The notes beneath the pieces are model-generated. The model had not been told where the DNA came from. It did no database searches and was given only the letters and a program-made list of their open reading frames with translations. From positions 1 through 24,201 of IMG/VR virus record IMGVR_UViG_3300020385_000058: a stretch of DNA of 24,201 nucleotides; one strand, 5' to 3'. A program made the position numbers and the translations under genes. Positions within the stretch are counted from its first letter, which is position 1, and every line of letters begins with the position of its first letter. Of the stretch, positions 6,649 to 24,201 are shown in pieces. Source of the DNA: a virus.

Positions 6649-7470
6649 TTAAATATTTTGAATTATATTGGCTATCTTTTCACCACCAATATCTCTAATT
6701 ATACTTATTGGCGTTTTGTCAGTTGTTTCACCTTGCACTTTGCCCTGACTAGTTGCTCCAGTGTTTTCTTCTGAAGCCCTTCCTGCAAAATTACTTGCGT
6801 CAATTGTTTCAAATAAAGTTTCTGCAATTCTCCACTCTTGAAGCTCAACAACAAAGTCAATTGCGTCAAAAGTATTTTCTCTCGTTTTTTTGTCAACAGA
6901 AGTAATAACCATATTTTTATGATAAGTCCCATCAGGTTCTGTTAAACTTAAAATTGTGCTTGTTTGCCATAAAGCTTTTAAATAAGAATAAGCTTTTCCA
7001 GAAGCTCTGTCTGATGGGTTTAATTCTTTAACAGTGTTCCAAAAGTCAACTGCACTGTTGACTGTATTTTGTATATCTTTTTTTTGTGCTTGGTCTGTAG
7101 TGTTTTTAAGTTGTTGCATGCCTTCTGTAAGTTTAGGAATTGCAACAGTTAGCACGGTTAGTTTTTGAGTTAATCTCTCAAGTAAGTTAGGGTCGCTTTG
7201 TGAATTGTAAGCTTTTTCAAAAACAAATCCCGTCATTGTAATTCTCTTAGGTTCAAACACTACATGGTCCGTTATATAAGTTCCGTCTTCAACATAGTTA
7301 GTAGTGTAACGGCTGACTTCTTTTAAATTAGAATTAATAACTTTGTCAAAATTAAAGCCTGCAATACCTAGCCTTTGCAGTGGTGACACAATATAATTGT
7401 TTAAATTTTGTGCTACCTTATTTAAATTTGGTTGTATTTTTTCAAAAGCAGTATTTTTAGAAGTTGTCAT
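6649..7470 (-). CDS. Dit-like baseplate/tail cap protein
   Basis: This 273-aa protein directly follows the tape measure gene. The sequence TYITDHVVFEPKRITMTGFV (about residues 63-82) matches the N-terminal domain of Dit-like proteins (itDHvi..P..it..G.v), which form the ring joining tail tube to hub. Two later segments (LTEPDGTYHKNMVITSVDKK and DAIDFVVELQEWRI, about 178-215) fit the family's beta-barrel core, where a 'M.I.s....r....nai.f...L.e.ri' pattern is typical. Its ATG overlaps the TGA of the plug's neighbour on the other side: the tape measure stop at 7467 lies within its start (ATGA), so the two are translationally coupled. Confidence 0.7.
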   Translation of the reverse strand: MTTSKNTAFEKIQPNLNKVAQNLNNYIVSPLQRLGIAGFNFDKVINSNLKEVSRYTTNYVEDGTYITDHVVFEPKRITMTGFVFEKAYNSQSDPNLLERLTQKLTVLTVAIPKLTEGMQQLKNTTDQAQKKDIQNTVNSAVDFWNTVKELNPSDRASGKAYSYLKALWQTSTILSLTEPDGTYHKNMVITSVDKKTRENTFDAIDFVVELQEWRIAETLFETIDASNFAGRASEENTGATSQGKVQGETTDKTPISIIRDIGGEKIANIIQNI

Positions 7471-8987
7471 TTTTGAAAAGAAATATTAGTTTGTGCTTGA
7501 GTAAATTGATTTTGCAAGACATTTTCAACTTCTCTAGCTATTATATTAGGTTCACTTGAGTTTGCATTTACTGTAATATTAATATCATTGTTTGTAGTTG
7601 TTGAATTAGAACCGCCATCATAAAAGTTTTTATAAGCTCCATAACCTAATCCTCCAAGTGCACCTAAACCAGCTCCAAGAGGACCAAATATACTACCTAA
7701 ACCCCCTCCTTGTGCTGCGTATTTTAGGGTATCAATATAAGGGTTTGCTTTGTCGGGTGTTATGTCTTTTAAATCATCTGATACTAATTCAGAGAAACCT
7801 GTAATAACTAGTCCCGCAGCTGAAGGTTTGATTTTTGAAAGAGCTTTAACTGATTTTCCTCCAATAGCCGCAACTGAAGGTTTGATTTTTGAAAGAGCTT
7901 TAACTGATTTTCCTCCAATAGCAACCATTGAAGTTAAACCTTTTGCTAATTTAGGTATTGCAAGCAAAACTAAACCTATCCCTAATACTTCGTATAGATT
8001 AGGTATTTTAGCTATTGCATCATATAAAGGTCCAAACATACTCTTACCATTTGCTTTCCAAACCGCAATATCATCAAGCAATAACACAATTGCCGTCAAG
8101 CCCGCTATAACTGGTATAAAAGGAACTGCAAGCAAACCAACCGCACCCGCTAATAATAATATACTACCTTTTGCATTTAAAATTAAAGAAGCCGCTCTGC
8201 CTATTGCTTCTGCAAACATTCCAAAACCTTTAGCTAAAGAACTTATAGTATTAACTACCCTATCTCCATTATCTTTAAACCATTTTAAACTTTTATCAAC
8301 TAAGTCTTTCAAATAAGGGGCTAACTTTACTAATGCTTTATTTCTTAAATTAATAAATTCAGTTGATATTTTTCTTACTTGCAAGCCTAAATTATTTAAT
8401 GTTTTAGCTTCTTTTCCATTTAAAAAGCTATTTTTACTTAATTTATCAAATTCTTTATTTGATAATTTTAAAATTGATAAAAAATTTGCATCAAGTCCTA
8501 TATCTTCAATTAAAACCGTTGCAGTAATATCATCAAGTCCTTTTACTTGCTGTCTTAACTGCTTTATTACGTCAAAAGCATCTTTTCCTAACACATCAAT
8601 TCCTGCCATTTGAAATGGTGCAAAATTTCCTTGACCCAATCTAAGCCTTGCAAGTGTTTTTTCAAGCCCTAAAATTCCAGTAGTGATATTATTTTCATTT
8701 AAATTTAAATCAATAGATTTTCCAACATTTGCAAGTTGATTTAACTTTGTAACTGCAAGCCCAGTTTGATTTGTAAAAGTTTGTAAATTTTTAGCCGATT
8801 GAATTCCACTATCTGAAAACTTTTTAAAGCTGTATCCCGCCGCCAGAGTTGCCGCACTCATTGCAGTAATTGCAACGGTTGCAGACTTCATTAATTTAGG
8901 TGCTTTATCAAGCCCTGTGTTAAATTTATTTAATTCTTTTAAATCCGTTTTTAAACCTAATGATACAAATAATCCTCCTAAATTCAT
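7467..8987 (-). CDS. Tail tape measure protein
   Basis: A 506-aa protein beginning with the tape measure-type N-terminus (GGLFVSLGLKTDLKELNKFN, then helix). Residues about 265-310 hold a strongly hydrophobic stretch (SILLLAGAVGLLAVPFIPVI and AIVLLLDDIAVW) with the membrane-active character common in tape measures, and another is near 332-345. The C-terminal part has a Gly-rich segment and ends in helices. Its length is short, implying a tail of moderate length; by the usual ~1.5 A per residue it would be on the order of 70-75 nm. It lies between the chaperone pair and the Dit-like protein. Residues 357-371 and 375-389 are a near-exact tandem repeat (see repeat feature). Confidence 0.85.
   Translation of the reverse strand: MNLGGLFVSLGLKTDLKELNKFNTGLDKAPKLMKSATVAITAMSAATLAAGYSFKKFSDSGIQSAKNLQTFTNQTGLAVTKLNQLANVGKSIDLNLNENNITTGILGLEKTLARLRLGQGNFAPFQMAGIDVLGKDAFDVIKQLRQQVKGLDDITATVLIEDIGLDANFLSILKLSNKEFDKLSKNSFLNGKEAKTLNNLGLQVRKISTEFINLRNKALVKLAPYLKDLVDKSLKWFKDNGDRVVNTISSLAKGFGMFAEAIGRAASLILNAKGSILLLAGAVGLLAVPFIPVIAGLTAIVLLLDDIAVWKANGKSMFGPLYDAIAKIPNLYEVLGIGLVLLAIPKLAKGLTSMVAIGGKSVKALSKIKPSVAAIGGKSVKALSKIKPSAAGLVITGFSELVSDDLKDITPDKANPYIDTLKYAAQGGGLGSIFGPLGAGLGALGGLGYGAYKNFYDGGSNSTTTNNDINITVNANSSEPNIIAREVENVLQNQFTQAQTNISFQK
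7820..7922. repeat. Tandem 49-bp duplication in tape measure gene (54-bp period)
   Basis: Positions 7820-7868 and 7874-7922 are identical, offset by 54 bp. It encodes the peptide IGGKSVKALSKIKPS twice, 18 residues apart, in frame in the tape measure protein. Nothing in between differs enough to suggest old divergence, so the duplication looks recent. Confidence 0.95.
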
Positions 8988-8988
8988 A

Positions 8989-9632
8989 TTATTTTTTATT
9001 AGTTGGCTTCGGTGCGTTTAATTTATGCATCATATAACTATAATTATTTTCAAAAGTTTCATAACAAATAATGTCTAATATAATATTAAATTTTTCTAAC
9101 AATATCACAGATGGATTGCCTCCATAATAGCCCAATTTAGCAAGTTTTATCGCATGATATTTGGCGTCATTTAAATTGCCTTGAGTTGTCGGCTTTTTAA
9201 ATTTAACCTCGTCATCCATTATTACTCGCCACTTTGGGCTTCTGTAAAACCCCCATAAGTTGCTATAATAGAAAATAAAACTTGGTTATTTATTGCGTTT
9301 AAATATTGTTTATTTTCATTAATTTCTTTTGCCTCCTTAATAGCTAAATTATCTATTAAGCATCTATAAACACATTTATGCAAATATTTCATTGCATTTT
9401 CATCAGTTTTAAATTTTGCAAGTGCAATGCCAAATTGTGTTTCATCGCTTACGTCTTTTAATGTATCAAGTTTTTGAATTGTAACTAAACTTTCAAAATG
9501 AGAATAAACCATCATTGCATCTTCAAACAAAGGCTCTACAAATGTAAATTTAATTTTATCATTTAAAGGAATTTCTTCATTATTTTTTAAAGCTCTGAAA
9601 TCAGGCTCAAATTTAATTTTTTGTTGCGTCAT
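8989..9632 (-). CDS. Tail assembly chaperone, -1 frameshift fusion product (gpGT-like)
   Basis: The two ORFs at 9222-9632 and 8989-9219 can be joined by a -1 shift at GGGTTTT (9252-9246), which is in the exact X XXY YYZ register (G GGT TTT) of the upstream frame. After the shift, the -1 frame reads YRSPKWRVI and then continues into MDDEVKFKKP without a stop, giving a 214-aa fusion (129 residues from the first ORF plus 85). This mirrors lambda gpG/gpGT and Mu gp41/gp41', in which the fusion product is a minor tail chaperone. The short 76-aa ORF alone may also be made from its own ATG at 9219, 2 bp after the stop. Order after the tube gene and before the tape measure is canonical. Confidence 0.75.
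9222..9632 (-). CDS. Tail assembly chaperone, main product (gpG-like)
   Basis: A 136-aa protein, mainly helical, with sequence such as MKYLHKCVYRCLIDNLAIKE and NNQVLFSIIATYGGFTEAQSGE. This is the size and position of the major tail chaperone, lying between the tube and the tape measure genes. The last eight residues follow the slippery site GGGTTTT; ribosomes that do not shift end here at TAA (9222-9224). It would bind the tape measure protein during tail assembly. No sequence family is assigned; the call rests on position, size and the frameshift architecture. Confidence 0.7.
   Translation of the reverse strand: MTQQKIKFEPDFRALKNNEEIPLNDKIKFTFVEPLFEDAMMVYSHFESLVTIQKLDTLKDVSDETQFGIALAKFKTDENAMKYLHKCVYRCLIDNLAIKEAKEINENKQYLNAINNQVLFSIIATYGGFTEAQSGE
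9246..9252 (-). promoter_or_regulatory. Slippery heptamer GGGTTTT for -1 frameshift
   Basis: On the minus strand the codons are GGG GGT TTT ACA; the heptamer G GGT TTT fits the X XXY YYZ rule, so both P-site and A-site tRNAs can re-pair. The -1 frame is open from here through 8989, merging with the downstream ORF. I found no strong stem-loop just downstream, but did not fold it. Confidence 0.75.
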
Positions 9633-9660: not shown

Positions 9661-10128
9661 TTATTGTGTTTGTAATTCTATAGTAAAACCTAAAACCCAT
9701 GGTCTTTCAAGCACCGCTATATTCCCATCACTACTTGCTGAAAACACGGGAGTTTGAGTTATTGAGCCACCAGTTAATTTATGTTTACTTTGTACGGATT
9801 GACCTAAACTATCTGTAGAAAGCAAATTCCATTCACCCGATATAAAGCCATTGCTTGGAAAGTTGTTTTGAAAATCCTTATAAATCCTCATAAAAAATTT
9901 ATCATCATTACTACCTGCTGTAACTTTTACGGTCATGGTTGCTTGAGAGCCTGTAAAATTTCTTACAACTCCAGACCCTCCGTTTCCAAAAGCAGTTCTT
10001 GTTGTGAAGTCACCCGCCATTTCTAAAGTAATAAAATCGCCACTTGCAAAATTTTCAAATCTGTAAGTTTCTTCCGCATATTTCATGATTAATGTGCCAT
10101 TTCCAGATAAATTTATTTTATTTGTCAT
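9661..10128 (-). CDS. Tail tube protein (DUF3277-type)
   Basis: The 155-aa protein follows the sheath gene and has the DUF3277 pattern: an early strand (NKINLSGNGTLIMKYAEETY), then FASGDFITLEMAGDFTTRTA, then GVVRNFTGSQATMTVKVTAG and SNDDKFF. The turn-rich SNDDKFF motif following two strands is characteristic of tube monomers of this family, which stack as hexamers. It lies 31 bp downstream of the sheath stop and 29 bp before the chaperone gene. The position and fold pattern together make a tube role well supported. Confidence 0.8.
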   Translation of the reverse strand: MTNKINLSGNGTLIMKYAEETYRFENFASGDFITLEMAGDFTTRTAFGNGGSGVVRNFTGSQATMTVKVTAGSNDDKFFMRIYKDFQNNFPSNGFISGEWNLLSTDSLGQSVQSKHKLTGGSITQTPVFSASSDGNIAVLERPWVLGFTIELQTQ

Positions 10129-10158: not shown

Positions 10159-11670
10159 TTACTGCTCATTTCTTGTAGCAATATTGGTTGTTCTTAGTCC
10201 CCCTGCTAATTTATTTGCAGTTTGAAAATTAATTATGCCAGCCACTCTTTCTGCTTGAGACTGTTGGTTAAATGGAGTATAGTATAAATAATATCCATTA
10301 GCTCTAATACTATTTAAAAAGCTTTCTCTATCTCCAAAAGTTTCACCATTCCATTTTTCATCTTTAGTGATTACTCCATTTGTTATAAACCTTTCGCAAA
10401 CATCCGATAATATGCTTAGAACTGTTAAAGCCCCAGCGTTATTTTGTGGTACTTTTGTTACTGATTTTTCATAATTAAAAACTGCCATTTGTTGTTCTAT
10501 TTCTAAGGCATCTCCGTCGTGTAAATTTGCAAAATAATTACCACTTTCAAGCTGTGCGTTGATTAAAGCTTCACCGCCCGTGTATCCTGCTGTGTAAACT
10601 CCTGCTTTTTTACATAAAGCAAGAAAACTGTCTGTCACTGCGTAATCAGGCTCTATCCCAGTTATTTTTTTTAAATTCATAATTATTGCAGTGTTAGAAC
10701 CTGAATAATTTACAGAACAACCTATACTTGCAAATCCTGCAACACATTTATTTACTTGACTAGCGTCATTAAAATAACCTATTGGTATTGTTCTTGTAAA
10801 TCCACTTGCTTGCAATCTTGTTGCAATGCCCGATTGAGATACATCTATACCCGATGTAATACCTAAAAAGTACGCTTCTAACTTAGCTTGAGTGTCTCCT
10901 GCTACCGCCTCAATATCATTTTCTAACATTGTTTGGTTTGTAAAAAAGCCATAATATTCAACTAAACTTGATACTCTAGCTTTAGCCTGAAGCAAAGTTT
11001 CACCTGTTGGGTTTGCCCCAGCGTTTATTGTTCCAGCCCCCGTGTTAAAGTATTCAGATGAACTTAAATCAGTACCAGTTACGGATGAAATTTGCTCTAA
11101 AGTTATAGACCCATCAGTTCCTACTTTTTTTGAACTGAAAATTAAGCCAATTTCATTGCCTGTGTTTTTTAAAATTGATATATCGGCGTAACTTTGCAAG
11201 CCTTTTTTGAAGAATTCTTCTTTAACTTGATCCCAACTATTACAATTGTTAAAATTTAAATTTGTTAATTCAAAAACTTGTCCGTCTACGGTTACTTTTA
11301 TTTCTCCATTACTAACTCCTTCAATTCCAGCTAAATTTGCACTAATGTCTGCCGTTGTAAAATTAGCAACTGTACCTTTAACTGCATTTTGTAAAGGAAT
11401 AATAATAAAATTACCTTTACCTGTTAATAAATTAGGGCTTTGTGCAAATATCGTGCTTGCTAAAGCATAAGTATCACTTGATATTCCAAAATCATCGCCA
11501 ACGGACCTTGCGTTGATATAAGTTCTGTAATCATCATTTTGATTTCCAGTTACAAATTTATCAACCGTGAATAAAGCAATATCGTTAGGGTTTTTTCCTT
11601 GTGTGGGAGTGCTTGAAATAATTGTTTGTACGTTTACATAATTATCAATGCTGACTGAGTTGAAAGGCAT
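10159..11670 (-). CDS. Contractile tail sheath protein (DUF3383 family)
   Basis: The protein begins MPFNSVSIDNYVNVQTIIS and continues with NPNDIALFTVDKF, the typical N-terminus of DUF3383 proteins. Central residues include a Gly/Ser-rich variable segment with ASSKKVGTDG-like loops; the C-terminal domain (AALTVLS...CERFITNGVI...YYLYYTPFN) contains the expected conserved Tyr- and Asn-rich ends. I chose the ATG at 11670, which is 5 bp after the stop of the terminator gene at 11675; the alternative ATG at 11724 would overlap that gene by 50 bp and add 18 atypical residues. Its length of 503 aa is normal for a sheath. It makes the phage contractile. Confidence 0.85.
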   Translation of the reverse strand: MPFNSVSIDNYVNVQTIISSTPTQGKNPNDIALFTVDKFVTGNQNDDYRTYINARSVGDDFGISSDTYALASTIFAQSPNLLTGKGNFIIIPLQNAVKGTVANFTTADISANLAGIEGVSNGEIKVTVDGQVFELTNLNFNNCNSWDQVKEEFFKKGLQSYADISILKNTGNEIGLIFSSKKVGTDGSITLEQISSVTGTDLSSSEYFNTGAGTINAGANPTGETLLQAKARVSSLVEYYGFFTNQTMLENDIEAVAGDTQAKLEAYFLGITSGIDVSQSGIATRLQASGFTRTIPIGYFNDASQVNKCVAGFASIGCSVNYSGSNTAIIMNLKKITGIEPDYAVTDSFLALCKKAGVYTAGYTGGEALINAQLESGNYFANLHDGDALEIEQQMAVFNYEKSVTKVPQNNAGALTVLSILSDVCERFITNGVITKDEKWNGETFGDRESFLNSIRANGYYLYYTPFNQQSQAERVAGIINFQTANKLAGGLRTTNIATRNEQ

Positions 11671-11674
11671 ATTT

Positions 11675-12208
11675 TTATAAATTTGTTGTTGTTGATAAAT
11701 TAATTTCTTTAAAGTAATTCGCATTACTTATAATCTGCTTTCCATGATACATAGAAAGGCTTATTCTAAAACGATTTAATCTGCTTGCACCCTCTAAAAA
11801 TCCTAAAGAACTCCAACTAGAATTAATTGGTGCTATAGTTACATTGTAATCATATTGTATTTGCTCTGATTTGTAAGAGTTTAAATATAGTAATAAAGTG
11901 TCTTGTAATTCAATAGCACTACTATCTCTTGAATATAATTCAATAGCAAAAATGCTTATAAATGCTTGGTCTATTGTTTCTAAAAACTCATCATTAGGCT
12001 CATCATATTTATAAGCCTTTGCAACTCCATAAGTTGTTTTGCTATCGTGTGAAATGTAAACTAATATCCCTTGCGTCGGTGCTATAAATTGATTTTGATT
12101 TTCAATAACAACTCTTAAAGGCTCAACATAAATAGGGTTGCCTGAATTGTCATTACCTACTATAAAAGTGTCCGTTATAATTTTTGCTAATATTTTAATA
12201 GGCGTCAT
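11675..12208 (-). CDS. Neck/tail terminator protein (LIC_12616-like)
   Basis: A 177-aa protein lying between the head-closure-like gene and the sheath, where the tail terminator is expected. The sequence includes QFIAPTQGILVYISHDSKTT near 42-61 and IQYDYNVTIAPINS, FLEGASRLNRFRISLSMYH near the C-terminus; the last pattern (strand with R-R-rich then F-R-I-S-L) fits the gp12-like neck terminator family. It would cap the tail tube and join it to the head. Its ATG overlaps the preceding TGA (12205-12208). Confidence 0.6.
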   Translation of the reverse strand: MTPIKILAKIITDTFIVGNDNSGNPIYVEPLRVVIENQNQFIAPTQGILVYISHDSKTTYGVAKAYKYDEPNDEFLETIDQAFISIFAIELYSRDSSAIELQDTLLLYLNSYKSEQIQYDYNVTIAPINSSWSSLGFLEGASRLNRFRISLSMYHGKQIISNANYFKEINLSTTTNL

Positions 12209-17011: not shown

Positions 17012-18460
17012 ATGGTAGAAAAAAAAAGTAAAAAAGTGAGCAATCGTAATCCTTTAGAAATTTTAGGATCAGCATATGCTGGGAGTGGTTTTAGGGAAAG
17101 TAATGCTTATAACTATGAAGAATTAGTCCAGTATGCTCAGAATAGAGCTGATTTAATTACTTACCAAAGGTTTTATTTAGAAAATTTATATGTATCTAGT
17201 GGCTTGATAAAAAGAATTGTAGATATGCCCGTTGAAGATGCATTCAAGCAAGGTGTCACAATTAAATCAGAAGCAATTTCAAATGCAAGTGATTTGAGGA
17301 AATTAAACAACTGGGTGGATAGAATTTTACTTCCACAGTTTAAAACAGCTAAGAAATTAGCTAGATTATTTGGAGGCAGTGCTTTAATTATCTCTGGTGG
17401 TTTATCAGAACAGGATAAACAAGATTTGCAACAAATTTCAAAAGGTGAAGATAAAACTAGTTATGATCTTAAAACGGAACTTGATTTAAATAATATCAAA
17501 CAGGGAGATAAAATTGCTTTTTACCCAGTCTCGCAATGGGAATTAAACCAAGCTGGAGTTTCAGAAAACCCTGAATTTAAAGATGTCGCTCTTAATCCAA
17601 TGACTTTTGGCATTGGAAATTATCAAGAATATAATTATGCTGGAGCAAAAGTGGATAAATCAAGGATAGTACCTTTTATTGGAATTGAGGCACCTTCATT
17701 AGTTAAGCAACGGTTAAGAGGTTGGGGGGTCAGTGTTATTGAGTCGGCTGTCACCCCTTTGCAAACTTATTACAAAGAAACAAAAGTTTTGTTTGAAATT
17801 ATTGACGAGACGAAGATTGATGTATTGCAAATTGACGGATTAAGTGAAATTGTGCAATCAGATGATGGTATTGCTAAAATAGATAAACTTGTTAATCAAA
17901 TTGCTCACAATAAAAATTATAAAGGCGTAATAACTCTTGACGGGAAATCTAACTATCAAGCTAAACAACTTAATTTTGATGGTATTGAAGTTGCATATAG
18001 AACTTTAGAAACAAACCTTGCAAGTAACATTGGCATTCCTAAAAACAAATTGTTTGGCGATAGCACGCAAGGAGTGTTTGCAACTGGCAACGATGCAATT
18101 GAAAATTACAATACCATGGTGCAAAACATTCAACAAGAAGCTTTACCGCAACTTGAAAATTTAATTAAAATAGGGCTTAAAACTGTTTTCGGTTTAGATT
18201 GGGATGAAATAGAAGAAGGTTTGGAAATTGACTTTCCTTCGCTTAAAATATTGTCTGATGAAGAGCAGAGTCTAATTGATGACAGAAAATTTAGTGCATT
18301 AAATCAGTTATATGCTAATGGCATATTAAATGCTCACCAATTAAAAGAACAAGTTAACGCAATGGGTATACTTCCTGTTGCATTAGATGTTGATAGTGGG
18401 GACGAGAGACCTGAACCTAATTTGCCAGAAGCCTTAGTTGAAGAAAGAGACTATGTTTGA
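17012..18460 (+). CDS. Portal protein (DUF1073 family)
   Basis: The 482-aa protein has the DUF1073 portal pattern: LENLYVSSGLIKRIVDMPVE near residues 55-75, the wing and stem region with WGVSVIESAVTPLQTYYKET (about 240-260), then KNKLFGDSTQGVFATGNDAI (about 345-364) and the family-typical C-terminal helices. Portal proteins form the dodecameric DNA channel at the head vertex and dock terminase. The start is the ATG at 17012, the first after the divergent promoter. Its TGA stop overlaps the ATG of the Mu F-like gene by 8 bp. The gene is on the opposite strand to terminase and capsid genes, which is unusual for this family's usually co-directional order. Confidence 0.85.
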   Translation: MVEKKSKKVSNRNPLEILGSAYAGSGFRESNAYNYEELVQYAQNRADLITYQRFYLENLYVSSGLIKRIVDMPVEDAFKQGVTIKSEAISNASDLRKLNNWVDRILLPQFKTAKKLARLFGGSALIISGGLSEQDKQDLQQISKGEDKTSYDLKTELDLNNIKQGDKIAFYPVSQWELNQAGVSENPEFKDVALNPMTFGIGNYQEYNYAGAKVDKSRIVPFIGIEAPSLVKQRLRGWGVSVIESAVTPLQTYYKETKVLFEIIDETKIDVLQIDGLSEIVQSDDGIAKIDKLVNQIAHNKNYKGVITLDGKSNYQAKQLNFDGIEVAYRTLETNLASNIGIPKNKLFGDSTQGVFATGNDAIENYNTMVQNIQQEALPQLENLIKIGLKTVFGLDWDEIEEGLEIDFPSLKILSDEEQSLIDDRKFSALNQLYANGILNAHQLKEQVNAMGILPVALDVDSGDERPEPNLPEALVEERDYV

Positions 18461-19412
18461 AATTATTGAATTACCAGATCTTGATTTAGATTTAAAGCAA
18501 AGAGAAAAAATTCAAAAAATTATATTTGACTATATTATTGCAACCATATTAAAACCTTTAGTGAGTGCAAATGGTTTTAATAAAACTATTATTAAAAATG
18601 CTAAATTAAGCGATCTTGAAAAAGCTATCAACAAAGGTAAAGTATATTACAAAGATGGTTATTTGAAAGGTAAATTTACAGCCTCCATCATCCGTGAAAT
18701 AACAAAATTAGGAGGTTATTATAGAAAAGGTGAGGGCTTTTTAATATCTAAAGCAACACTTCCAACATCTATAATAACTGCATTAGATGTTTACGAGCAA
18801 TCAATGTTAGATAGCTACGCAAAAACAATGCAAACATTAAATAACATAGATACTGACACAGTTAATAATTTAAATTTTGATGAAGAATATCAAGACATAT
18901 TAAACACTTTAGATTTTGAAGTTAAACAATCTGTTAAAGATATTGCAGTTATACCTGAAGTAACGGCTAGAATGAAAAAAGAAATTGCTAAAAATTACAG
19001 TGAAAATTTAAAATACTATATCAAGAAATTTGCAGACAAAGAAATATTTGAACTTAGAAAAGCGGTGCAAGAAAACTTTTTTGAAGGTTTTAGAACTTCT
19101 AAGTTAGCAGAAACTATTAAATATAGATATGGAGTATCAGAAAGAAAAGCAAAATTTTTAGCAAAGCAAGAAACCGATTTATTGTATTCTTTTTTTACTA
19201 CTGAAAGGTATAAAGATGCAGGAGTTAAATCTTTTGTATGGACGAGAACAACCTCAAAAGTGCCTGATAAATATCATGAAACTTTGGTCGGCAAAGAGTT
19301 TTCTTTTGATAATTTACCTATTATTAATTTAAAAACAGGTCAGAGGGGCGTACCTAAACAAAGATGGAATTGTAGTTGCGGAATGCGTCCTGTTTTAAAA
19401 GTGGTTAGATAA
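18453..19412 (+). CDS. Phage Mu F-like minor head protein
   Basis: The 319-aa protein carries the Mu F-like C-terminal domain (about residues 210-319): SERKAKFLAKQETDLLYSFF, GVKSFVWTRTTSKVPDKYHE, and the ending with PKQRWNCSCGMRPVL, matching the R.....a.tE......, W.T..D.....H, and C.C motifs. The N-terminal 200 residues are helical. It is a minor head protein found just after portal genes. I chose the ATG at 18453 inside the portal's last codons; a TTG at 18438 would add 5 residues without better evidence. Its stop overlaps the convergent LRR gene's stop by 8 bp. Confidence 0.85.
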   Translation: MFEIIELPDLDLDLKQREKIQKIIFDYIIATILKPLVSANGFNKTIIKNAKLSDLEKAINKGKVYYKDGYLKGKFTASIIREITKLGGYYRKGEGFLISKATLPTSIITALDVYEQSMLDSYAKTMQTLNNIDTDTVNNLNFDEEYQDILNTLDFEVKQSVKDIAVIPEVTARMKKEIAKNYSENLKYYIKKFADKEIFELRKAVQENFFEGFRTSKLAETIKYRYGVSERKAKFLAKQETDLLYSFFTTERYKDAGVKSFVWTRTTSKVPDKYHETLVGKEFSFDNLPIINLKTGQRGVPKQRWNCSCGMRPVLKVVR

Positions 19413-19779
19413 AAATTTCCAAATTTGGTCTATTTTTTATTTTTTCAGGTAGATTTGTTAACTTGTTGTATATTAAATCTATCCATTCAAGCTTTACTAA
19501 CTTATCAAATATATTTTCAGGTAGGTTTGTAAGATTGTTGCGAGCTAAATTTAATCCTTTAAGCTTTATCAATTTTTCAAATATGTTTTTTGGTAGATTT
19601 AAAAGACTATTGTTATCTAAATATAACTTTTCAAGACTTTCAAAAAAACCTTTATACTTTTCAATATTAAGAATATAAATTAAATCTTCGTCTATTAATC
19701 CTAAATTTGAAAGATTAAGCTCTGTTTTGTTTAAATCTGATTCAATTATATTAATTGCTTGTTTTATGTTGTTATTCAT
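19405..19779 (-). CDS. Short leucine-rich repeat protein (124 aa)
   Basis: A 124-aa protein with a helical N-terminal region (about 1-40) followed by three to four LRRs of 23 residues: SLEKLYLDNNSLLNLPKNIF, KLKGLNLARNNLTNLPENIF, KLEWIDLIYNKLTNLPEKI. There is no signal peptide or membrane segment. The N-terminus is paralogous to the LRR gene at 23161-23757 (MNN..KAINIIE..LN.T.LNL..L.L..EDL). The ATG lies within the 77-bp repeat carrying promoter and leader. LRRs are protein-binding solenoids; phage LRR genes are uncommon and the partner is unknown. It is convergent with the Mu F-like gene, overlapping by 8 bp. Confidence 0.85.
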   Translation of the reverse strand: MNNNIKQAINIIESDLNKTELNLSNLGLIDEDLIYILNIEKYKGFFESLEKLYLDNNSLLNLPKNIFEKLIKLKGLNLARNNLTNLPENIFDKLVKLEWIDLIYNKLTNLPEKIKNRPNLEIFI

Positions 19780-19852
19780 AGTTCGTATTTATATTTGTTT
19801 TCACCTAAAAAGTAAACAAAATAACCTGCATTGTCAAGCAAGAAAGTAAAAA
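19776..19852 (-). repeat. 77-bp perfect direct repeat, copy 1 (promoter, leader and ATG)
   Basis: Identical to 24125-24201 over 77 bp, and possibly longer because the second copy runs into the window edge. On the left the identity ends one base beyond the start codon of the LRR gene. It holds the TTGACA -35 at 19832-19837, a -10-like TACTTT at 19809-19814 (17-bp spacing) and the leader. Confidence 0.95.
19809..19837 (-). promoter_or_regulatory. Promoter for the LRR gene (within the repeat)
   Basis: TTGACA (19832-19837) and TACTTT (19809-19814) are separated by 17 bp. The -35 is perfect, the -10 weak. The leader includes AGGTGA at 19801-19806, but this is 21 bp or more from the ATG at 19779, too far for a normal ribosome binding site. 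Confidence 0.6.
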
Positions 19853-21937: not shown

Positions 21938-21957
21938 TTATAAATTGCATTTGTCAA
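21930..21957 (-). promoter_or_regulatory. Terminase promoter
   Basis: TTGACA (21952-21957, in GCTTGACAA) and TATTAC (21930-21935) are spaced by 16 bp. The -35 lies within the last codons of the repeat protein gene ending at 21938. The sequence AGTAATATATTA near the -10 resembles the tandem half-sites at 16910-16936, but no full palindrome is visible here. Confidence 0.6.
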
Positions 21958-23152
21958 GCTTTGCAGAATATTGTAGCATTTCATTAGTAGGGTTTTTAAC
22001 GTATTTAATCGTTGCGGGATTGAAAGATAAAGCTTTAAATATTACATCATTAAAAGGTTTTTTAATTTCTATTAAGCAAAGTGGATCTTCTTTTACTGCC
22101 TCTAACTGCTCTTTTTCTGTTGATTCGTCAATATATCTAATTGCAAAACCATTTTGCTTGACTGCGGCTAATCTTTCTTCTGTAGTAGGTTCTTTTAAAT
22201 ACTCAAGGCGAAAACCGTTTGCCTGAACCATAGCCAATCTTACTTTTTGATTAGAAGTATCAATATAAAACTCCCTATCTTTTTTAACCGCCATTATTTG
22301 CACATCTTCACCTGGATTAGGTAGTAATGTGTAAATTTCCTTAACATTATCCGCATAACATATAGCCATTAGTTTCTCTTCTTCTGTTAAATTATCTATA
22401 TATTTAATAGAAGAAGGATTGCTTTTTATAGCCTTTAATCTTTCTTCTGCAGTAGGATTGGTTAAACTTTGAATAAAATATATAGAATTTTCTTCAAGTA
22501 ATATATTTTTCATTTTTTCAGTTAGATTTTTAAGATAAAATGCAATATCAGAGCAATTAGGCTCTTTTAATAAGAATTCAAAATATTCTATCTCTTCTTT
22601 TTTTAATAAATTACAATCTATTTTGTTATTCATAATGGAGTTTAATTTTTTTTTGGATACACAAATGGTTTTCGTGGAACCCCATGCATCATTATAAATC
22701 TCTATATCTGGGTCAATATTGGCATTTTCAAAAAAATTTTCACCAAATATAAAATCTAATGGATGTGGCTGGTTAGAAATAATTAATTTTTGCAAATTTT
22801 TACAAAACTTTACTTGATTAGGTAATATTTCGGTAATGTGAGTGCCTAATTGAGTATTAGCTAAATTTAGTGTTTTTATACAATTAAAATATTCTTGGTT
22901 GCTATCAATTAACCTTCCCAGCACTTTTGTATTAAGTGTATATATTTTAGAAAAATTTAATATATTATTTTCACTTTCATAATGTTTTATGTCTGCATTT
23001 ATTTTCATAAATAAATCTTCTTCTTCTTTTGAAGATAGTTGGCGATAAAAAGGACATAGCAATTCTGGTGATATATAGCTCCAATCTTTTACCTCATGGT
23101 TATAAAACTTTTTTGTGTCATTGTTTAAATCGTAATCTATTTTGTTATTCAT
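21938..23152 (-). CDS. LRR-like plus 22-residue-repeat protein
   Basis: The 404-aa protein has two parts. Residues about 60-150 have LRR-like segments (IYTLNTKVLGRL, IKTLNLANTQL, LQKLIISNQP). Residues about 217-404 consist of about eight 22-residue repeats with consensus kxNpxxIxYIxxpTeEeRLxAV (for example KSNPSSIKYIDNLTEEEKLM, KQNGFAIRYIDESTEKEQLE), similar in style to DUF4116-type repeats. There is no signal peptide. Met174 begins a second MNNKID identical to the protein's own start, with a 22-bp DNA repeat (22615-22636 and 23134-23155), suggesting a gene fusion. It is 8 bp downstream of the LRR gene and lies before the terminase promoter. A repeat scaffold with unknown partner. Confidence 0.8.
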   Translation of the reverse strand: MNNKIDYDLNNDTKKFYNHEVKDWSYISPELLCPFYRQLSSKEEEDLFMKINADIKHYESENNILNFSKIYTLNTKVLGRLIDSNQEYFNCIKTLNLANTQLGTHITEILPNQVKFCKNLQKLIISNQPHPLDFIFGENFFENANIDPDIEIYNDAWGSTKTICVSKKKLNSIMNNKIDCNLLKKEEIEYFEFLLKEPNCSDIAFYLKNLTEKMKNILLEENSIYFIQSLTNPTAEERLKAIKSNPSSIKYIDNLTEEEKLMAICYADNVKEIYTLLPNPGEDVQIMAVKKDREFYIDTSNQKVRLAMVQANGFRLEYLKEPTTEERLAAVKQNGFAIRYIDESTEKEQLEAVKEDPLCLIEIKKPFNDVIFKALSFNPATIKYVKNPTNEMLQYSAKLDKCNL

Positions 23153-23160: not shown

Positions 23161-23757
23161 TTAATTGTTGTCAAGTGTGAAAATCAGATTAAGCTTATCT
23201 AACCCATCAAGCTCATCTTTTAAATCTTGGGGTCGCTGGCATACATGTAAACTTAAATATGTAAGATTTTTTAAATCTTTAAAAGCTCCTTTTTCAATGT
23301 TTTCAATGTAGTTATTGAAAAATAATCTTTCAAGACTTGGTAGTCCGTTAAAAGCACCTTCTTTAATTTGCTTTATTTGGTTATTAGCCAAACTTAAATA
23401 TTCAAGATTTTCTAAACCACAAAACATATTTTCTGAAATTTCTGTGATTTGATTGTAATGTAAATATAACGCTTTAACATTTCCTAATTCATTTAATGAG
23501 CCTTTTTCAATTTTTTTAATTTGGTTGTTATTTAAAGCTAGTGATTTTAAAGATTTAAGGTCGTTAAACAAGCCTTGAATTTCTGAAATTTGGTTGCTGT
23601 GTAAATTTAACTTTTCAAGATTTCCAAAAAACTCCTTGTATTTATTTAAAAGAGATTGTAAATCTTCATAAGTTAGATCTAACTTATGAAGATTGAGTAT
23701 TGTTGCATTTAAATTTTTTTCAATTATGTTAATTGCTTTTTGCGTTGCGTTGTTCAT
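23161..23757 (-). CDS. Leucine-rich repeat protein (198 aa)
   Basis: A 198-aa protein whose N-terminus (MNNATQKAINIIEKNLNATI) resembles the LRR protein at 19405-19779. It has about six LRRs of 23 residues with L..L.L..N.I..I pattern (NLEKLNLHSNQISEIQ, SLKSLALNNNQIKKIE, NVKALYLHYNQITEIS, NLEYLSLANNQIKQIK and SLERLFFNNYIENIEK). No signal peptide or membrane segment is visible. It lies 8 bp downstream of the membrane protein gene and just before the repeat-protein gene, making a three-gene unit headed by the second 77-bp repeat. An interaction role is likely; target unknown. Confidence 0.85.
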   Translation of the reverse strand: MNNATQKAINIIEKNLNATILNLHKLDLTYEDLQSLLNKYKEFFGNLEKLNLHSNQISEIQGLFNDLKSLKSLALNNNQIKKIEKGSLNELGNVKALYLHYNQITEISENMFCGLENLEYLSLANNQIKQIKEGAFNGLPSLERLFFNNYIENIEKGAFKDLKNLTYLSLHVCQRPQDLKDELDGLDKLNLIFTLDNN

Positions 23758-23765
23758 AATGTTAC

Positions 23766-24128
23766 TTAATTACACTCTTTATACATCTCGTCTATCTTGT
23801 CTTGATACTTAGTTGCCATTCTAACAATTAAACCGTCGTATAAGCTATCTTGAGAGGCTTTAAGTTCTTTGTAAGCTTCACAAGGTAGTAAGTTATAAGG
23901 GTTTAACTCTATATTATTAAATTGCTGAGAGAGTAATAATTTATTATGTCTTTCTGTTGTATCTATAACTGACTGCGTCTGCATACTGAAAATAATCATA
24001 AAAATAATTATTATAAAAATAATCAAATTATATATTTTTAAATTATATATTCTTGGGGTATTTATTGCCTTTTTTCCATAAAAAAAGCATCCAATGATTC
24101 CAATTATAAGTAATATTAATGAGATCAT
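23766..24128 (-). CDS. Small membrane protein (120 aa)
   Basis: A 120-aa protein with two hydrophobic segments (ISLILLIIGIIGCFFYG at 2-18 and IYNLIIFIIIIFMIIFSM at about 32-49), followed by a soluble, mostly helical tail of about 70 residues with two Cys. The tail likely sits on one side of the membrane. Its start codon is inside the 77-bp repeat, so it shares promoter and leader with the LRR gene at 19779. It heads the LRR cluster. No family recognised; candidates are a membrane anchor or superinfection-type factor. Confidence 0.7.
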   Translation of the reverse strand: MISLILLIIGIIGCFFYGKKAINTPRIYNLKIYNLIIFIIIIFMIIFSMQTQSVIDTTERHNKLLLSQQFNNIELNPYNLLPCEAYKELKASQDSLYDGLIVRMATKYQDKIDEMYKECN

Positions 24129-24201
24129 AGTTCGTATTTATATTTGTTTTCACCTAAAAAGTAAACAAAATAACCTGCATTGTCAAGCAAGAAAGTAAAA
24201 A
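24125..24201 (-). repeat. 77-bp perfect direct repeat, copy 2 (to window edge)
   Basis: Identical to 19776-19852 base for base and cut by the window edge, so its true right limit is unknown. It contains TTGACA (24181-24186), the TACTTT -10 (24158-24163) and the leader and start codon of the membrane protein gene. Confidence 0.95.
24158..24186 (-). promoter_or_regulatory. Promoter for the membrane protein-LRR cluster (within the repeat)
   Basis: Same TTGACA-17-TACTTT promoter as at 19809-19837, because the sequence is part of the perfect repeat. It should drive 24128 to 21938. Confidence 0.6.

Follow-up and report, generated by a model that had tools for sequence, protein, structure and literature searches.

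The virus studied here very probably produces two forms of its tail assembly chaperone by −1 programmed frameshifting similar to that of lambda G/GT, and the signal that would induce the ribosome to slip is almost certainly real. The evidence consists of a slippery heptamer in codon register, a −1 frame free of stops, the homology that both parts of the putative fusion share with those of related phages, conservation of the site, and a predicted stem downstream of it. The initial annotation had proposed a −1 frameshift of the lambda G/GT kind joining two tail chaperone ORFs, and the comparative evidence supports this proposal.

Slip site and reading frames

The window, that is, the whole stretch of DNA analyzed, is an entire IMG/VR record of 24,201 bases with a GC content of 27–33% in 2-kb steps. 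Its tail genes follow the order sheath, tube, ORF1, −1 tail, and tape measure, and genes for a portal, a Mu-F-like protein, a capsid protein, and a terminase are also present. The features relevant to the frameshift are as follows.

10159..11724, minus strand: tail sheath gene (DUF3383); phrog_205 tail sheath, E 9.4e-46; PF11863, E 4.9e-33
9661..10128, minus strand: tail tube gene, adjoining on the upstream side; match to phrog_280 (virion structural protein) with E 8.9e-9, and position after the sheath
9222..9632, minus strand: ORF1, short (G-like) tail assembly chaperone, 136 aa; relatives' profile and hhalign
9246..9252, minus strand: in-register slippery heptamer G GGT TTT; 61 of 67 distinct relatives have its equivalent
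8989..9246, minus strand: T-like extension in the −1 frame, which would add 85 aa after the putative slip, with base 9246 counted twice because it would be read twice; open frame and relatives' −1 tail profile
9224..9240 (9240–9234 and 9231–9224), minus strand: 5′ arm of the proposed stimulatory stem; folds with z −4.6 and −4.9
8989..9219, minus strand: downstream ORF in gene-caller form, 76 aa; ATG 2 nt past the ORF1 stop
9129..9145 (9145–9138 and 9135–9129), minus strand: 3′ arm of the predicted stem, within the −1 coding region; from the pair list of the fold
7467..8987, minus strand: gene of the tape measure protein, adjoining on the downstream side; match to phrog_8125 (tail length tape measure) with E 5.4e-17

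ORF1 and the −1 tail thus sit between the tail tube and tape measure genes, as in a G/GT-type arrangement. The module is that of a contractile-tail phage, and the locus is the usual place of tail assembly chaperones.

On the minus strand, ORF1 ends with ACT TAT GGG GGT TTT ACA GAA GCC CAA AGT GGC GAG TAA. G9252 is the third base of the codon GGG and is followed by the zero-frame codons GGT and TTT, so that the zero-frame register and the coordinates 9252–9246 given by the initial annotation all hold. That annotation had counted eight codons before the TAA, which is correct if the stop at 9224–9222 is included; seven sense codons separate the heptamer from the stop. After a slip, the −1 frame would read TAC AGA AGC CCA AAG and continue stop-free through the ATG at 9219 to a stop ending at 8989, 1 nt from the tape measure start. 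The stop-free passage into the downstream ORF and the 214-aa fusion (129 + 85 aa) claimed earlier were both obtained again when re-derived from the sequence. The +1/−2 frame runs into a stop no more than 3 codons from that of ORF1, and the window offers no Mu-type −2 arrangement.

Several other features of the window were noted. The portal and Mu-F-like genes (17012–19412, plus strand) are opposite in strand to the sheath, tube, tape measure, capsid, and terminase genes. Within the tape measure gene, two tandem 54-nt copies that are 98% identical (7814–7921) probably reflect a recent change, in frame, in the length of the tail ruler. A 77-nt direct repeat without mismatches (19776–19852 and 24125–24201) carries the leader and start codon of two genes; the record ends with its second copy, so the assembly may have been interrupted there. 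Leucine-rich-repeat genes and a DUF4116 gene stand beside the phage structural genes (19405–19779, 23161–23757, and 21938–23152, minus strand), and the plasmid matches of the DUF4116 protein are mainly from Bacteroides (7 of 9 records). A tRNA search of the window was empty. None of the 31 window genes carries GGAG, GAGG, or AGGA within 20 nt upstream, and their leaders are AT-rich, so the host may belong to a lineage that does not use Shine-Dalgarno sequences, e.g., Bacteroidota.

Conservation of the slip site in related phages

Relatives were gathered by scanning viral contigs with an alignment of three sheaths, which found 129 contigs, of which 80 were kept. As single-protein queries of viral contigs, the ORF1, sheath, and portal of the window yielded no relative; neither did its terminase against genome contigs, and a tblastn search of ORF1 against phages found nothing. 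Together with eight GenBank phage records, picked by hand out of 340 with a sheath match, and the window itself, the set comprised 89 loci, of which 82 were readable, representing 68 distinct genes. Seven loci (L022, L029, L038, L042, L064, L065, and L081) were dropped for want of a readable tube or chaperone ORF. Four others (L044, L053, L079, and L082) were set by hand, all with a heptamer, and were omitted from the profiles and the resampling test described below; L027 and L076, whose tails are cut by the contig end, were also omitted from the profiles. Between its tube and chaperone genes, L053 carries an extra 165-aa ORF (1752–2249) that looks like an HNH endonuclease by eye.

An in-register slippery heptamer was found at the equivalent place, between tube and tape measure, in 62 of the 68 distinct genes, window included. 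The initial annotation had suggested looking for a slippery site at the same place in related phages, and this check, when run, succeeded in 61 of 67 distinct relatives. The usual heptamer of the relatives is CCCTTTN (48 of the 68 genes); the others have T6N, with AAATTTT, GGGAAAT, and GGGTTTT occurring once each, the last in the window only. Among the six genes that have no canonical heptamer, five have N CCT TTT (N being G or A) and one has CCC TTT TTT. The window was entered in this count by its own phenylalanine codon rather than by alignment; its GF residues coincide exactly with the PF of the relatives in one alignment and lie 4 residues off in two others.

All eight phage records share the order of sheath, tube, ORF1, −1 tail, and tape measure, with an in-register heptamer and an open −1 tail that runs 46–63 codons past the stop and ends near the tape measure start. 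The joined frameshift product is annotated in one of them (Burkholderia phage Magia), and three more list just one "tail assembly chaperone."

How often would such a site arise by chance? In-register heptamers of the form X XXY YYZ (Y being A or T) abound in the window: its 31 listed ORFs contain 161 in 7785 codons, which corresponds to an expectation of about 0.45 for the 22-codon overlap. GGGTTTT itself occurs 7 times on both strands compared to 2.5 expected from base composition. Since in-register heptamers are so common in this AT-rich contig, the site in the window, taken alone, is weak evidence. When synonymous codons of the window overlap were resampled, a heptamer appeared in 2.25% of 400 trials. 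Across the relatives, by contrast, such a heptamer occurs in the overlap of 60 of 64 distinct genes compared to 24.4 (sd 3.3) expected when the protein is kept and synonymous codons are drawn, and by this sequence-based count the heptamer is far above chance. The abundance of such heptamers would suit a broken or accidental arrangement, in which two overlapping ORFs or a sequencing indel happen to adjoin a chance heptamer. However, all eight phage records and most viral contigs show this −1 relation with the tail and the site, and such conservation in unrelated records refutes a chance or indel origin, leaving it virtually no probability.

Homology of ORF1 and the −1 tail

Profiles built from the relatives were searched against 278 stop-to-stop segments of the window and 2000 shuffled proteins. 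With the profile of 61 relatives' ORF1 proteins, only the window ORF1 exceeded the threshold (E 4.4e-5; best decoy 0.07), and with the profile of 61 relatives' −1 tails, only the downstream ORF of the window did so (E 8.4e-8; best decoy 0.2). By hhalign, the family led by the window (28 sequences) matched seven chaperones from phage records with probability 97.2 and E 2.9e-11, and members of that phage-record group match PHROGs named tail assembly chaperone. A PHROG match was obtained for 1 of the 28 aligned members of the window-led family (E 0.001); the window ORF1 itself gave no PHROG match and no above-cutoff Pfam match. Its predicted structure (pLDDT 76) matched BFVD models, of which the first was an unnamed 134-aa protein (E 4e-4) and the next was one named "Tail assembly chaperone protein" (E 3.7e-3, TM 0.58). 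No match with E of 0.001 or lower was found in the PDB and no Z of 5 or more by VIA-align, results that say nothing against a chaperone fold. Homology to chaperones was found by profiles only, plus this predicted-structure match.

In moderately diverged pairs, the differences in the −1 tail at codon positions 1, 2, and 3 of the −1 frame numbered 19/2/29 and 13/1/29, so that they fall mostly at positions 1 and 3, as they do in sequences that are translated. Most other pairs were too similar, and one pair (11/9/25) was unequal in length and compared unaligned.

A predicted long-range stem downstream of the heptamer

The analysis added a second signal, absent from the initial annotation: a predicted 15-bp long-range RNA stem that starts 5 nt past the heptamer, in which 9240–9234 would pair with 9135–9129 and 9231–9224 with 9145–9138. 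The fold of the 148 nt after the heptamer has an energy of −45.5 kcal/mol (z −4.61), and none of 200 shuffles was as good. In terms of the duplex energy of a 17-nt arm against the next 120 nt, the stem position is the lowest of 8020 scanned on the coding strand. In a scan of 140-nt folds across the window, the site (9256–9117) ranked fifth lowest of 688. A local hairpin just past the heptamer of the window was unsupported, the 44- and 65-nt folds having z of about +0.5 and the 60-nt fold z +0.44.

The start of the 17-nt arm was chosen with the fold already known, and the unbiased test is the one with the offset fixed in the relatives. At that offset, the duplex energy was among the lowest 5% of its own locus in 24 of 66 loci and among the lowest 10% in 37 of 66. 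Over 29 offsets in the 66 loci, the median percentile reached its minimum of 0.075–0.078 at +5/+6 nt, compared to 0.3–0.7 at +10 nt or beyond and at −20 or further upstream. The peak persisted after thinning to 59 loci. A spacing of +5/+6 nt is usual for a stimulator of −1 frameshifting, and a stem some 5–8 nt past the heptamer, as is characteristic of such signals, was found here by computation only. The stems differ among relatives, many of which have local hairpins. The 60-nt structure of the relatives had a mean z of −1.0 at the site versus −0.75 to +0.04 at six other offsets, which is only a mild signal; the positional duplex test is sharper. Shine-Dalgarno-like 4-mers lie within 22 nt upstream of the heptamer in 17 of the 68 genes, and no upstream Shine-Dalgarno stimulator was found in the window.

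The position of the stem also bears on whether the two frames could be joined by slippage of RNA polymerase, rather than the ribosome, at GGGGGTTTT. The site does contain a G5T4 run, but runs that short are poor polymerase slippage sites, most relatives have only C3T4 or T6, and the codon register and the stem at +5/+6 nt suit a ribosomal mechanism. Polymerase slippage is thus exceedingly improbable.

Start codons and re-initiation

The extension could in principle also be translated as a separate 76-aa protein by re-initiation at the ATG at 9219, with little or no frameshifting. The start codon follows the ORF1 stop by only 2 nt (TAATAATG), which makes re-initiation possible in the window; the conserved tail domain lies entirely downstream of it; and in 20 of the 68 genes, including that of the window, the −1 frame offers an ATG ahead of the domain. 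On the other hand, 31 of the 68 genes lack any ATG, GTG, or TTG from the slip site up to the last 44 tail codons, so that slipping is the only way to reach their tail, and what is conserved instead is the slip site and the stem at +5/+6 nt. Furthermore, the 20 nt upstream of ATG 9219 have the highest GC content of the leaders of the 31 window genes (50%; median 15%). These 20 nt also hold no Shine-Dalgarno core; as none of the 31 genes has one, its lack is no argument against re-initiation. Collectively, these observations make a separate protein in place of the fusion very unlikely. Some re-initiation in the window, besides frameshifting, is possible.

A more elaborate role for the stem can be considered. 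The same stem (9240–9224/9145–9129) might both stimulate the slip and, by enclosing the ORF1 stop and ATG 9219, block re-initiation, so that the extension would exist in the fusion only. As its 3′ arm encodes the conserved tail motif, slipping ribosomes would unwind the very stem that stimulates them, and how often slips occur would vary with the spacing of ribosomes. We regard this dual role as unlikely.

More distant loci from sequenced genomes

A further 31 distant loci came from sequenced genomes, mostly as beta-proteobacterial prophages. Automatic detection recovered a heptamer in 7 of 29. A search with the tail motif placed 27 of the 31, of which 12 showed a canonical heptamer, 12 only G/T-CCT-TTT, and 3 neither; both passes combined gave a canonical heptamer in 13 of 31. 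CCT TTT is nearly constant across these loci, which suggests that the weaker N CCT TTT may serve there. N CCT TTT with N other than C was seen at L030, L035, L050, L068, and L071 and at L091, L093, L101–L107, L109, L111, and L117. With such a base, full re-pairing of the P-site tRNA is impossible. The −1 tail is still kept at these loci, and N CCT TTT is possibly a weaker slip site.

Comparison with known systems and proposed mechanism

The lambda G/GT slippery heptamer is GGGAAAG. Like lambda G/GT, the window has its site before the tape measure gene, with a −1 slip placed near the end of the upstream ORF and a short and an extended product predicted. Unlike lambda, it encodes a contractile tail (DUF3383 sheath), has a different heptamer, and has a predicted long-range downstream stem. 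According to PMC5009743, the tape measure protein of lambda is bound by gpG and by the −1 product gpGT, the T part of which binds the tube protein.

Compared to Magia (MT701587), whose record annotates a tape measure chaperone as a frameshift product, the window has the same gene order, −1 tail, and place of the heptamer, and the sheaths are homologous (24.6% identity over 95%). Magia differs in having C CCT TTT and a −1 tail (..YESL.DG..L.DIA.MND..) that reads differently. Among cultured phages, Bdellovibrio phage phi1422 is the nearest relative when ranked by sheath score (139 bits), and it alone of the phage records gave a capsid match. Its genes 57–59 are arranged alike, the heptamer being C CCT TTT and the −1 tail 56 codons long; unlike the window, it has a local hairpin rather than a long-range stem, and the fusion is unannotated in its record.

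In phage Mu, the tail chaperone frameshift of gp41/gp42 also lies ahead of the tape measure gene. The initial annotation had likened the window to the Mu gp41 arrangement, and this was wrong: PMC5009743 gives −2 frameshifting for Mu, whereas the downstream ORF of the window lies in the −1 frame, and the analogy fails for this reason.

We infer the following course of events, including the slipping itself, the ratio of the products, and the roles of both proteins. Most ribosomes would halt at the TAA (9224–9222) and release the 136-aa short chaperone. A minority would be held back at G GGT TTT by the long-range stem 5 nt downstream, and the two tRNAs would re-pair one base back, from GGT to GGG and from TTT to TTT. 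Translation of 85 more codons would then complete the long chaperone of 214 aa. If lambda is a guide, the tape measure protein may be bound by both chaperones, with the extension recruiting tail tube subunits.

Implications

Frameshifted tail assembly chaperones are widely known (PMC10885494), and the Magia record already annotates a frameshift in the chaperones of a DUF3383-sheath phage. The mechanism is thus well known, and the window adds another case, ordinary in kind. For this phage, the gene list would be corrected to one gene with two products. The phage also adds a probable example of frameshifting among phages that lack a Shine-Dalgarno core in front of their genes, so that stimulation of the upstream Shine-Dalgarno type is not expected. 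For the large and mostly unannotated group of DUF3383-sheath phages, the results suggest a two-part rule for recognizing the chaperone gene: first, N-CCT-TTT (GGT-TTT in the window) between tube and tape measure and, second, a stem 5–6 nt downstream of the slip codons.
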